NCBI GenBank assembly: GCA_902763185.1 | Contig: CACWQT010000008.1 | Span: 1-64,000 of the forward strand | Source of the DNA: an uncultured Rhodospirillales bacterium | GTDB lineage: Bacteria > Pseudomonadota > Alphaproteobacteria > RF32 > CAG-239 | Length of the DNA: 64,000 bases | Direction of reading: 5' to 3' | In this document: positions 51,250 through 56,175 of the stretch, in pieces | Position numbering within the stretch: the stretch's first letter is position 1 | How the letters are laid out: every line of letters starts with the position of its first letter | Translations under genes and position numbers: made by a program | Notes under the pieces: model-generated | The model's database searches: none | Seen by the model: the letters and a program-made list of their open reading frames with translations, nothing else | Told to the model about the DNA's origin: nothing

Positions 51250-53001
51250 TTAGTTCCTCTGCCGCATTTTACGAACCCTTGCCAAGGTTAAAGAATAATT
51301 TTTTATCTTACCGGCGGGTTTGGGCTTAAAGGGCGAAATTTTGCTCTCAAAATAATGCGGATTACCGTGCATTTCTATGTATTTTTCAATAGCATCTGTA
51401 TCGCAATTCTTAAATTCTTCCGGTATTTGATTATAAGTATCAAAAAGTTTTTTAAGTTCTCTTTTAGCCTCTTTTGTCATTGCTTCCGGCACCAATAACG
51501 GCTCTTCAAAATTAGGAATAAGAACAAACAAATCTTTTGACATCCGCCGTATATTTGCCTTTTTGTGTGCTTTACCGGAAGTTATATGCACTAAACTGGC
51601 ATCTGTCGGCAAGTCTTGATTAACAACTTCAGTTTTGGTACTAAAGTTTCTCGGTAGTTTATGTATAAGTTCTTCAACCGACGGTTTGGCAAAATAGCGC
51701 CCGCCGAAAGTTGCCAAGGCCGTATCATCAAGAGGTTTATCGTTAATATCAAATCCATTAATCAAACGCGTTAAATCAACGTTACGGAATTGATAAAAAT
51801 GTCGGATAATCTCAAAATCTTCTTTATCAAGCAAATTAGATACCGGATAAAATTTAAGATAAGTTTTGTATTCTTTATCATCAAACGGCACCCGCGTCAT
51901 CTTAAAATCAGCAGAAGATAATATCATTTTTTTAAAATTCGCGTCTATTGCCAGCTCATACATCACCTTATTATAAGCCGCCGTAACAGCCGAGCTGTTT
52001 TCTCTTAAATCATAAGCATTTAATTTTTCCAATTCAAATTTGAGCTTGGTTGCAACAAACAAATGTTGCATAACAACCGGTCGCTTGGCATCGGGAAATT
52101 TTCTTAATTTATCACCGTTAAGAAAAATATCATCAACCACACTTTGACGCTCATTTTTAAATTTATTAAGTGATTTAACGCCAGCCAACTCATCACACAT
52201 TTTAAGTTTGATATCAACAAATTCCGCATCATCTTTAATGTATTTGGAGAGGTCAATGCCGCCAAAAGAATAAAGATGTGTTAAAGCACGGTGATAATTT
52301 TTATCATGAGGTTTGTGAAATCCGTAATTTTTGAGATACTGTGTTAAAGAAGAGATGAGCGAAGGCGTATAATGCGCACGGAATTTTTGCTCCCACATTC
52401 GTATAGCCCCGTTCATCAGTAGCCCATATTTTTTATCTCTCTCAAGACTGTCTGTGCTTTCGGGGTTAATCGTGCCGTCTTTGATGGCATCAAAATAAAA
52501 CTTCATATAAGTGTTCTCATATTTTTTGATGACTTTTTGCTTGTCTTTTGCTAATTGATATTCAAAATCCGCCGTCAATATAGCCGCCACATTAGCTGAG
52601 ATTTCCTCATGCATCCGTAGTTGAATAAATTGCGATGGAGAATATTTGTACCTCTTCCAATAGGCAAATTTCTTGTTATGATGATGCCATTTTTCATGTG
52701 AAAAGTAGGGGAGTTGCATCCGATGAACTTTAGAGTCTTTTACAAAATTTCGGATAATTTGATTGTTGCAATAAGTCAAAAGTGCGGACGCATAATGGCT
52801 GAGCGTATCATTTCTAAAACAAACTGTTTGCACCGGATTCTTAACTAAAACCGCCGGAATGGAATCATTTAGCTGTTTTTGTGGCGCACGTTCATTTTGA
52901 TTTGTTGCAGACACAACTTGAGCGCCGTCTGCCATCACCAACAAACTGACAGACGCCAACAAAAAGTCTCTGAATATTTTCCATTGAGAACTTTTAGCCA
53001 C
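51250..53001 (-). CDS. Large exported protein of unknown function
   Basis: 583 residues with the GTG start at 53001, placed by GGAG-N7 upstream and by the resulting signal peptide (AKSSQWKIFRDFLLASVSLLVMADGAQVVSA region). A TTG at 53055 would begin inside the -35 box, so it is not used. The protein is helical, rich in Lys, Tyr and His, with an LRMHEEISANVAAIL segment at about residue 130 that looks like a metal helix but has no second motif. Family not recognised. Confidence 0.7.
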   Translation of the reverse strand: MAKSSQWKIFRDFLLASVSLLVMADGAQVVSATNQNERAPQKQLNDSIPAVLVKNPVQTVCFRNDTLSHYASALLTYCNNQIIRNFVKDSKVHRMQLPYFSHEKWHHHNKKFAYWKRYKYSPSQFIQLRMHEEISANVAAILTADFEYQLAKDKQKVIKKYENTYMKFYFDAIKDGTINPESTDSLERDKKYGLLMNGAIRMWEQKFRAHYTPSLISSLTQYLKNYGFHKPHDKNYHRALTHLYSFGGIDLSKYIKDDAEFVDIKLKMCDELAGVKSLNKFKNERQSVVDDIFLNGDKLRKFPDAKRPVVMQHLFVATKLKFELEKLNAYDLRENSSAVTAAYNKVMYELAIDANFKKMILSSADFKMTRVPFDDKEYKTYLKFYPVSNLLDKEDFEIIRHFYQFRNVDLTRLINGFDINDKPLDDTALATFGGRYFAKPSVEELIHKLPRNFSTKTEVVNQDLPTDASLVHITSGKAHKKANIRRMSKDLFVLIPNFEEPLLVPEAMTKEAKRELKKLFDTYNQIPEEFKNCDTDAIEKYIEMHGNPHYFESKISPFKPKPAGKIKNYSLTLARVRKMRQRN

Positions 53002-53026
53002 TTCTTCTACTCCATGAATGTTCCTT

Positions 53027-53055
53027 AAAATACCACTTTTTAAAGCAAGAGTCAA
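53027..53055 (-). promoter_or_regulatory. Promoter of the gene at 51250-53001
   Basis: Minus strand TTGACT, 17 bp, TATTTT, about 30 nt before the GTG start. Confidence 0.6.
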
Positions 53056-53077: not shown

Positions 53078-54520
53078 CTATTTCTCATTGTCTGTATAAG
53101 CCAGACAGGGAGAACAAATATTTTCTATCTTATAATCAGGATATAGTTTTTTGTAGAGCTTTTCAGCTTGTGTCAGGTATTTATTTCTCTCTGCTGGTGT
53201 TTTGGCAAGAGATGCTTGCTCCCTAAGCTTTATAACTTTATCAAGAGGATCTGTTGCAATTATACCTTTTTCTTCTTTGAGCCATTGCTTAAAGTCAGCG
53301 ACATTTTCTTCAGGAAGAACAAAAGGAGTTCTAGTTGCAACTTTGACTCTAACTAAAATATTTTGCTCCTTAATTTTTGATAATTCCTCCCATACAGCAA
53401 CCTTATTAGACCGTTTTAAGACTTCTCCACCTTTTTTTAATACCCAATTTTGAGCAAAATCCGCTTTAAATATATCACTTTCACACCTTTCTTTTGTGAC
53501 TAATGTTGATTTATCTATTAAAACGGCATGTTTTTCCTTAAATATCCACTGTGTTAAGGTTGGAATGTTTTCTTTAGGTAAGACATAAATGGTTAAATTC
53601 CCTGCTTTTGCTGGCAATAAGATATTTTCTTCGTTTTTTATCAGATTATCCCATAAGGCATTCATTTCTTGAACAGATAAAAATTTTCCATTTTTTTCCA
53701 CATGCCAAATGGTTGTAAATTGTACTTTGGTAATATCCGTTTCAAGTTTATCTCTTAAATCATTAGCAACAACTATATTTTTTTCCTTAAATAACCATTG
53801 CTTAAAAACGGGGATATTTTCTTTAGGAAGGACATACGAAGGAGGATTACTTCTAGTTTTGACTAAGATATTTTGTTCTTTAGTAGTTGCTAACTCATCC
53901 CATAAATTTCCTTTTTCCCATTGATCTCCAATGAATTTTTTATCTTGTTGCAATCGCCATCCGAGAAATTGAGCACGTGTAATATCTGATTCATTTTTTG
54001 CTCTATCGGTTAAAATCCCTTTATCTTGTATGGCAAAAACATCTTTTTCTTTATAGAGCCATAATTTGAAAGCAGAAATATTTTCTTGAGGTAAAACATA
54101 CGTTGTTTGTTTTCCAGATTTAACAAGAATTAAAAGATTTTCCCCACTATTTTTTGCTTCTTCCCACAATTCATCACATATCGCGGCAGGCATAAGGTTT
54201 CCGGCTTTTTCAAATCTCCAACATTCGCTAAACTGAACTCGTGTAATATCCGTTTCAAGTTTATCTCTTAAATCATCTAAAACAATTACACCTTTTTTCT
54301 TAAATAACCACTGCTTAAAGAGAGGCATGTTTTCTTTAGGTAATGCGTAATGTCTTGGTCCTTTTACCAAAATATTTTGTCCTTTGATATGTGATAATTC
54401 ATCCCATAAAGATGATTTTTCAGAACGTTTAAGAATCTTTCCGCCTTTTAGGGAGCGGTAATAAAAAACAAATTGTTTTTTACTTATCAATGCATCTTGT
54501 TCTTTAGAGTTGTCAGTCAT
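53078..54520 (-). CDS. Tandem-module repeat protein with alternating A/B units
   Basis: 480 residues, no signal peptide. Five modules are marked by LP(K/Q/E)EN at residues 60, 143, 231, 314 and 402, spaced 83, 88, 83 and 88. Modules 1, 3 and 5 have (Q)NILVK; after modules 1 and 3 comes DLRDKLETDIT. Modules 2 and 4 have ENxLxxxKxGxxTxYVLP and are followed by a different ESDI segment. The real unit is thus a 171-residue AB pair. Each module has a Trp-rich FKQWLFKEK helix. Family unknown; the last ~55 residues are a TPR-like coil. Confidence 0.75.
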   Translation of the reverse strand: MTDNSKEQDALISKKQFVFYYRSLKGGKILKRSEKSSLWDELSHIKGQNILVKGPRHYALPKENMPLFKQWLFKKKGVIVLDDLRDKLETDITRVQFSECWRFEKAGNLMPAAICDELWEEAKNSGENLLILVKSGKQTTYVLPQENISAFKLWLYKEKDVFAIQDKGILTDRAKNESDITRAQFLGWRLQQDKKFIGDQWEKGNLWDELATTKEQNILVKTRSNPPSYVLPKENIPVFKQWLFKEKNIVVANDLRDKLETDITKVQFTTIWHVEKNGKFLSVQEMNALWDNLIKNEENILLPAKAGNLTIYVLPKENIPTLTQWIFKEKHAVLIDKSTLVTKERCESDIFKADFAQNWVLKKGGEVLKRSNKVAVWEELSKIKEQNILVRVKVATRTPFVLPEENVADFKQWLKEEKGIIATDPLDKVIKLREQASLAKTPAERNKYLTQAEKLYKKLYPDYKIENICSPCLAYTDNEK

Positions 54521-54654: not shown

Positions 54655-56175
54655 TTAATATGACCGTGCGTAAATCACGTCTAACGTCGCTTTTTTACCC
54701 GAGAGCAAACATTCACCCTCAGTGCCGCTTTGATCAAACGGAATACAACGGATAGTCAAACGCATTTCTTTCAATTTATCTAATGTGTCATCATCACCGC
54801 ACCATTTACCGCGCACAAAGGCAACCTTGTTTTGCTGATTTTCGCCGTTGATGAAGATATTGGAATTGGCAAAATAGGCCTCAAATTCTTCTTTGGTCTT
54901 AACCGTGGTGACAATGTTAGCGCTTAAACGTTCTTCGGCGCGTTTAAGCATTTCATCTTGAATAACCTGAAGTTTGTCGCTAATCGTCTCAACAAAGCCC
55001 TCAAAGCCTTCAAAATTCTTCCAACCGTCTTGGTTGATGTGGATACGATTGCGGAACATCACCGCGTTCTTTTCCAAATCTTTAGCCCCGACTTCAACAA
55101 TCAAAGGCGCGCCTTTACGTGTCCACTCCCACATTTTATCAACGGCATCTTTCGGACGGCTATCCAATTTAACACGAATTTTCTCTCCGCCGAAGATTTT
55201 ATCCTTGAGCGCATTTTTGAGCTTTTCGGCATAAGCCGAAATCTCGGTTTCTTTGCTTTTATCTTTTAAGATTGGAATAATTACCACCTCATACGGTGCA
55301 AGCTTCGGCGGCACACACATACCTTCGTCATCCGCGTGCGTCATAATCAAGCCGCCGATAAGACGGGTAGAAACACCCCACGAGGTTGTGTAAGCAAATT
55401 CCGGTTCATTATTAGTGTTAATAAACTTGATATTGGCGGATTTTGCAAAGTTCTGCCCCAAGAAGTGTGAGGTTCCGGCTTGGAGCGAACGTCCGTCTTG
55501 CATCATGGCTTCAATGCAATAGGTGGTAACCGCACCTGGGAATTTATCATATTCCGGCTTTTTACCTTTTATGACGGGCATGGCCATATCATTCACGCAC
55601 AAATCTTCATACATTTTTAAGCCGATTTCAGCTTCTTTTTCAGCTTCTTCAAAAGAGGCGTGAGCGGTATGCCCTTCTTGCCATAAGAATTCGCGCGTAC
55701 GAAGGAAAAGCCTTGGCCGCATTTCCCAGCGGACAACATTTGCCCATTGGTTAATCATCACCGGCAAATCACGGTAAGAGTGCACCCATTTGGAAAAAGA
55801 GTCGGCAATAATTGTTTCGGAAGTAGGTCTTACAATGAGCGGCTCTTCAAGCGGTGAAGCAGGAACAAGTTTACCGTCTACAGCACTCAAACGAGAGTGG
55901 GTAACAACCGCCATTTCTTTAGCAAATCCCTCCACATGGTCAGCTTCTTTTTGGAAAAAGCTCAAAGGGATAAACATCGGGAAGTAGCAGTTTTCATGTC
56001 CGGTTTCTTTAATTTTTTCATCTAAAAGATGTTGAATACGTTCCCAAATGCCATAACCCCACGGTTTAATTACCATGCACCCCGGAGAGGCTGAAATTTC
56101 TGCCATATCGGCAGCGGTAATCACATTTTGATACCACTCGGGGTAATTGCTTTCTCTAGTATTTTTCAGAGCCAT
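54655..56175 (-). CDS. proS: Prolyl-tRNA synthetase, archaeal/eukaryotic type
   Basis: 506 residues. Charges tRNA-Pro with proline. Class II motifs are visible: SASPGCMVIKPWGYGIWE, PTSETIIADSFSKW and RTREFLWQEGHTAHAS. The C-terminal zinc-type domain ends in Tyr (ARSY). The short form without the bacterial editing insertion and with this tail is the archaeal/eukaryotic type, found in scattered bacteria. Alphaproteobacteria normally have a bacterial-type enzyme, so this one was probably acquired by transfer (inference). Confidence 0.94.
   Translation of the reverse strand: MALKNTRESNYPEWYQNVITAADMAEISASPGCMVIKPWGYGIWERIQHLLDEKIKETGHENCYFPMFIPLSFFQKEADHVEGFAKEMAVVTHSRLSAVDGKLVPASPLEEPLIVRPTSETIIADSFSKWVHSYRDLPVMINQWANVVRWEMRPRLFLRTREFLWQEGHTAHASFEEAEKEAEIGLKMYEDLCVNDMAMPVIKGKKPEYDKFPGAVTTYCIEAMMQDGRSLQAGTSHFLGQNFAKSANIKFINTNNEPEFAYTTSWGVSTRLIGGLIMTHADDEGMCVPPKLAPYEVVIIPILKDKSKETEISAYAEKLKNALKDKIFGGEKIRVKLDSRPKDAVDKMWEWTRKGAPLIVEVGAKDLEKNAVMFRNRIHINQDGWKNFEGFEGFVETISDKLQVIQDEMLKRAEERLSANIVTTVKTKEEFEAYFANSNIFINGENQQNKVAFVRGKWCGDDDTLDKLKEMRLTIRCIPFDQSGTEGECLLSGKKATLDVIYARSY

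Follow-up and report, generated by a model that had tools for sequence, protein, structure and literature searches.

A previously undescribed tandem alpha/beta module, stand-alone or joined to SF2 helicases, as a candidate recognition array in one family of uncultured Alphaproteobacteria

The window (the whole stretch of 64,000 nucleotides analysed here) encodes a 480-aa protein (53078..54520, minus strand) made up of five tandem copies of a previously undescribed module of about 80 residues and a C-terminal tail. In sister species related modules form the C-terminal half of proteins that begin with an SF2 helicase. Our preferred reading, in which we have about even confidence, is that the modules constitute a modular recognition array by which the sister helicases are aimed, and that the window protein is a stand-alone nucleic-acid binder. 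The module family is new to the family and structure libraries searched, and its fold is confidently predicted.

The repeat architecture is evident from the LPxEN marks of the window protein (LPKEN, LPQEN, LPKEN, LPKEN and LPEEN at residues 60, 143, 231, 314 and 402), which are spaced by 83, 88, 83 and 88 residues. Its best self-match, at an offset of 171 residues, has a score of 350 (residues 55-255), whereas the highest value reached by 200 shuffles over offsets 60-299 is 51; the five-module repeat and the 171-residue period proposed in the preliminary description are thus real. An HMM built from the protein's own modules locates module 1 at 54278..54511 (A-type, with a degenerate start), module 2 at 54029..54271 (B-type), module 3 at 53765..54007 (A-type), module 4 at 53516..53758 (B-type) and module 5 at 53252..53497 (A-type), all on the minus strand, the two classes being assigned from a tree that sets modules 1, 3 and 5 apart from 2 and 4. 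The A/B difference is modest (41-48% identity for like pairs, 32-48% for unlike ones), all five modules being only 32-48% identical to one another, and TRF reports no tandem array. This AB super-unit of 171 residues is peculiar to the window protein, whereas the helicase-linked arrays have a single period of ~82-90 residues. The gene has a GC content of 32% against 39.5% for the window, an AT-richness fitting an accessory gene.

Recent duplication of two-module units had been proposed from an exact DNA identity of 33 nucleotides at an offset of 513. The identity itself is borne out and covers 34 bp (54243..54276 and 53730..53763, minus strand), a length reached in just 2 of 2000 synonymous recodings. 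The duplication is nevertheless old and not recent, because pS is 0.57-0.71 for every pair of window modules, so that synonymous change is close to saturation; 52 of 72 identical residues share their codon, where 43 would be expected by chance. Local preservation or gene conversion explains the 34-bp block better than a recent duplication does.

Searches of Pfam, NCBIfam, PADLOC, PHROGs and PDB sequences returned no family match for the modules, in agreement with the earlier statement that no known family could be recognised; the best PADLOC score of the window protein is E 0.012, with no single stretch passing alone. Multi-repeat scores for UPF0180, NYN, BRCT, PRK04164 and others in Pfam, PHROG and NCBIfam were discounted, since most of them add up weak fragments from several repeats. 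In those scans the single stretches that pass are few and lie in portions of different modules; no recurrent family emerges from scanning the modules singly (DUF1823, the most frequent, appears in 4 of 23). In profile searches, run on genomes that are mostly MAGs with one per species, 17 of the 152 genomes from the window's family contain the modules (G121 as a marginal case), and the 384 others from the class contain none. When 84,980 species genomes were scanned, 8 loci came up, their titles being uncultured Alphaproteobacteria or 'uncultured Azospirillum', and the modules were absent from the phage, plasmid and viral-contig collections searched. Across these searches the modules are therefore seen only within one family of uncultured Alphaproteobacteria. 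A helicase query gave no match at E<=1e-18 in 398 genomes of a phylum sample that lacked a positive control, and literature searches found no description matching helicases with tandem C-terminal modules like these.

The module is predicted to adopt a small alpha/beta fold in which a beta hairpin separates helices 2 and 3. AlphaFold2 models have a pLDDT of 87 for a module pair and of 94 for a single module (module 2; pTM 0.81), and the structural check suggested in the preliminary description thus gave a confident model, but no significant fold match: Foldseek against the PDB returned nothing at E<=0.001 (best E 0.17 for the pair and 0.29 for the single module). The matches of the two-module model were multi-domain ones with an rmsd of about 16 A and are meaningless. 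Weak hits to eS10, PefR, SmtB and the ParA N-terminus (the last at TM 0.47) recur with E values of 0.3-1.1 and TM below 0.5, where a TM above 0.5 or an E of at most 0.001 was set for winged-helix membership. We take eS10, MarR/ArsR-type and ParA N-terminal domains to be winged-helix, and the likeness of the predicted module to them is a lead only.

In several sister species (G003, G007, G008, G009, G010 and G016) the modules make up the C-terminal half of proteins of 825-1142 aa, the N-terminus of which is an SF2 helicase (ResIII, Helicase_C). The intact helicase-linked arrays contain 3-6 modules each. The corresponding gene is contig-broken or damaged in G011, G013 and G014, and a more distant version is found in another genus (G152). 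The motifs DEAH, TATP and QRxGRxxR are visible in the sister helicases, ResIII matching at E=7e-23 in P0003. The best PDB relatives of the helicase domain are a putative helicase, XPB, UvsW and a Type I R subunit, and its matches to the PADLOC PbeA and REase models (PbeA down to E=3e-13) are generic. With respect to the SF2 ResIII/DEAH helicases (XPB, UvsW, Type I/III R subunits; PADLOC PbeA, mREase_IV), the motor domain is thus present in the sister proteins and absent from the window protein, which has no helicase motor match in Pfam, and the tandem C-terminal modules match nothing in those families. Alignment reveals that the C-terminal helical tail of the window protein (53081..53233, minus strand; CxxC at residues 469/472) has a homologous counterpart in most sister helicase-array proteins. 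This shared tail ties the window protein to the helicase family, though it is without the helicase domain; no helicase of the sister family was found in the window genome. Intact stand-alone arrays of 8 modules also occur in two other genera (G027 and G175), with no helicase match in either genome. The arrays are basic (pI 8.2-9.9; the window protein has a pI of 9.1 and a net charge of +13), in contrast to the acidic helicase domains (pI 5.3-6.4).

Several variants of the helicase-array gene were observed. The match in G005 is confined to the tail (residues ~415-474), its gene (L044:7909-8598, minus strand) having an in-frame internal deletion that removes everything between motif II (DEA) and the CxxC tail, with ~10 bp of near-identical sequence at either end. 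In G013 (L104:17253-18987, plus strand) the gene lies in two overlapping frames near a contig end, reflecting a frameshift or an assembly error. In another genus G031 (L099:1706-5119, minus strand) encodes a related helicase (35% identity) with about six different C-terminal repeats of period 87-97, whose profile showed no significant similarity to that of the modules; the pairing of a helicase with C-terminal repeats may be very ancient or may have originated on more than one occasion.

The arrays change faster than the motor to which they are joined. Across five species the helicase domain is 96-97% identical at the DNA level, compared with 89-94% for proS in the four of them compared, and the arrays differ in module content as well as number (G003 5, G007 3, G008 4, G010 5 and G016 6 modules). 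The arrays of G006, G011 and G014 end at contig edges, as expected for repeats, and their counts are minima. Of the repeat growth suggested previously, the variation between related species (3-8 modules) is therefore upheld, but not the recency, given the saturation described above. Modules of one protein tend to cluster in the tree, indicating concerted evolution. Among the 23 modules of the five-species arrays 28 of 79 positions are invariant, and the copies are nearly identical save in helix 1 and just after it (positions 9-11, 14, 15 and 18), the helix-2 N-cap (27-28) and the beta-hairpin tip (53, 54 and 56); further variable positions are 2, 39, 41 and 65. The secondary structure suggests that these positions lie close together in space. 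Since they were chosen on the five-species set, the test relies on the other arrays. In four of these the chosen positions are again more variable (5.3 against 2.4 minimum changes per site when pooled; permutation among polar positions, P=0.00025); taken by itself, the window array shows the enrichment (P=0.003), and for the G175 array by itself it is not significant (P=0.086). For recent pairs (pS<0.2) in independent arrays the variable-site pN is 0.24-0.28 against a pS of ~0.15-0.18, which suggests, on small counts, diversifying selection at these sites. Over all pairs the variable-site pN/pS is about 1, a value that relaxed constraint would also give.

We favour nucleic acid as the probable ligand because basic arrays are joined to acidic helicases and the relatives of these helicases act on DNA. 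Each alpha/beta module of ~70 residues, with its linker of 12-18 residues, would offer the ligand a variable face (helix 1, helix-2 N-cap and hairpin tip) on a conserved scaffold, and modules in series would provide specificity and avidity. One module may read one unit, so that targets would be read module by module. In the sister species the array would be a C-terminal arm attached to an SF2 ResIII/DEAH helicase or translocase, a motor that it probably guides to particular nucleic-acid sequences or structures. Such arrays could be re-specified via module duplication, loss and gene conversion together with residue substitutions at the variable sites. The window protein, which has this CxxC tail but no helicase, would most likely bind nucleic acid on its own, perhaps as a regulator or to block or guard sites. 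Against a nucleic-acid ligand stand the lack of a significant Foldseek match in the PDB to any nucleic-acid-binding domain, and the stand-alone form in the window, whose genome holds no helicase partner of the family.

It is conceivable, though fairly unlikely, that the modules instead bind a protein partner (phage, host or self), that their variability tracks this partner and that the helicase is recruited by protein contacts. A variable surface patch on a conserved scaffold suits either type of ligand; protein-binding repeats, ankyrin and LRR among them, also have variable faces, and the variable-site residues include I and A besides polar ones. However, aromatics, which are common in protein interfaces, are depleted at these sites, the arrays are basic and the modules are linked to an SF2 helicase. 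A bolder form of the nucleic-acid reading would make the modules a new class of re-specifiable repeat, in which one alpha/beta module reads one unit via helix 1 and the hairpin tip, the array targets an SF2 helicase or, as in the window protein, stands alone, and diversifying selection acts, for example, against mobile DNA; this we regard as unlikely.

The array gene of the window lies between proS on its left flank (54655..56175, minus strand) and, on its right, a co-directional downstream gene (51250..53055, minus strand) that begins 22 bp past the array stop and encodes a 601-aa protein with a leader-like N-terminus and no Pfam family. In the nearest relative by proS (G001, 87%) proS is followed after ~0.1 kb by the 601-aa neighbour, with no array between them, and G012, G002 and G017 have the same arrangement of proS, a member of the neighbour family and no array. 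The block flanking the site is otherwise conserved throughout the genus. Because of these array-less sites, the simplest account is gain of the array at the proS site in the window's lineage. The neighbour family, present in up to 4 places per genome, also adjoins the stand-alone array of G027 (L031:9173-10480, plus strand).

Most sister helicase-array genes are found elsewhere, between rsmB and a gltX gene, and no helicase adjoins the corresponding gltX of the window genome. At five rsmB-gltX loci (L032, L034, L035, L036 and L038) interspecies identity is 96-98% for the helicase and gltX, while in the same species it is 89-94% for proS and 76-94% for rsmB; these identities suggest that the helicase region may have been spread by recombination. 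At the same loci an OEP/MFP/ABC/MacB cluster (its last gene uncalled in L032) lies between rsmB and the helicase; this cluster is not at the G005 or G013 loci. No modification or nuclease partner genes were found beside the array loci.

The window gene could also be a decaying C-terminal piece of a helicase-array gene that has lost its helicase and is drifting, its variable sites merely reflecting low constraint. Its tail is that of the helicase proteins, its genome contains no helicase of the sister family and broken helicase genes exist elsewhere, as in the internal deletion of G005 and the frameshift of G013. We nevertheless consider decay improbable, given that the 480-aa ORF is intact, starts at a module boundary and is preceded by a ribosome-binding-like site (GAGGTG), that scaffold pN is 0.32 against a pS of 0.61, indicating past purifying selection, that the array occupies a different site from the helicase genes and that intact 8-module stand-alone arrays exist in two other genera. 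The preliminary description had thought of a strain-variable surface or adhesion protein, for which the variable repeat number between species and the leader-like N-terminus of the downstream neighbour could be cited, but the protein's own N-terminus (MTDNSKEQDALISKKQF) is not leader-like and the array is almost certainly cytoplasmic, because in sister species such modules are part of a cytoplasmic SF2 helicase protein, which makes a surface role very improbable.

Two known arrangements bear comparison with the candidate nucleic-acid-reading array. Helicase-associated (HA, PF03457) repeats are tandem, all-helical modules of ~70 aa that lie C-terminal to bacterial SF2 helicases. The sister modules are likewise tandem and C-terminal to an SF2 helicase; their predicted fold, unlike that of HA repeats, is alpha/beta, and no PF03457 match appeared in any Pfam scan of the window protein, the sister proteins or single modules. 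The second comparison is with TALE, STAR, MOON and pTERF, DNA-binding tandem repeats that combine a conserved scaffold with hypervariable positions and a variable number of units, the array in MOON being C-terminal to other domains (PMC11417379). The modules described here share with these a conserved scaffold, few variable positions and a variable module number, and the sister helicase arrays, like TALE-type repeats, have near-identical copies that differ at few fixed positions. They differ in their size of ~80 aa, their mixed alpha/beta fold, their union with a helicase and in that DNA binding is here a prediction. Pfam, PDB sequences and Foldseek give no homology of the modules to TALE, mTERF or PPR repeats.

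Repeat families whose scaffold is conserved and in which a few positions vary have time and again proved to be modular readers and useful tools. The natural arrays of 3-8 modules in this family, which change faster than their helicase, form a ready set of variants that could show whether the variable residues decide binding and whether module swaps re-target helicases in evolution.
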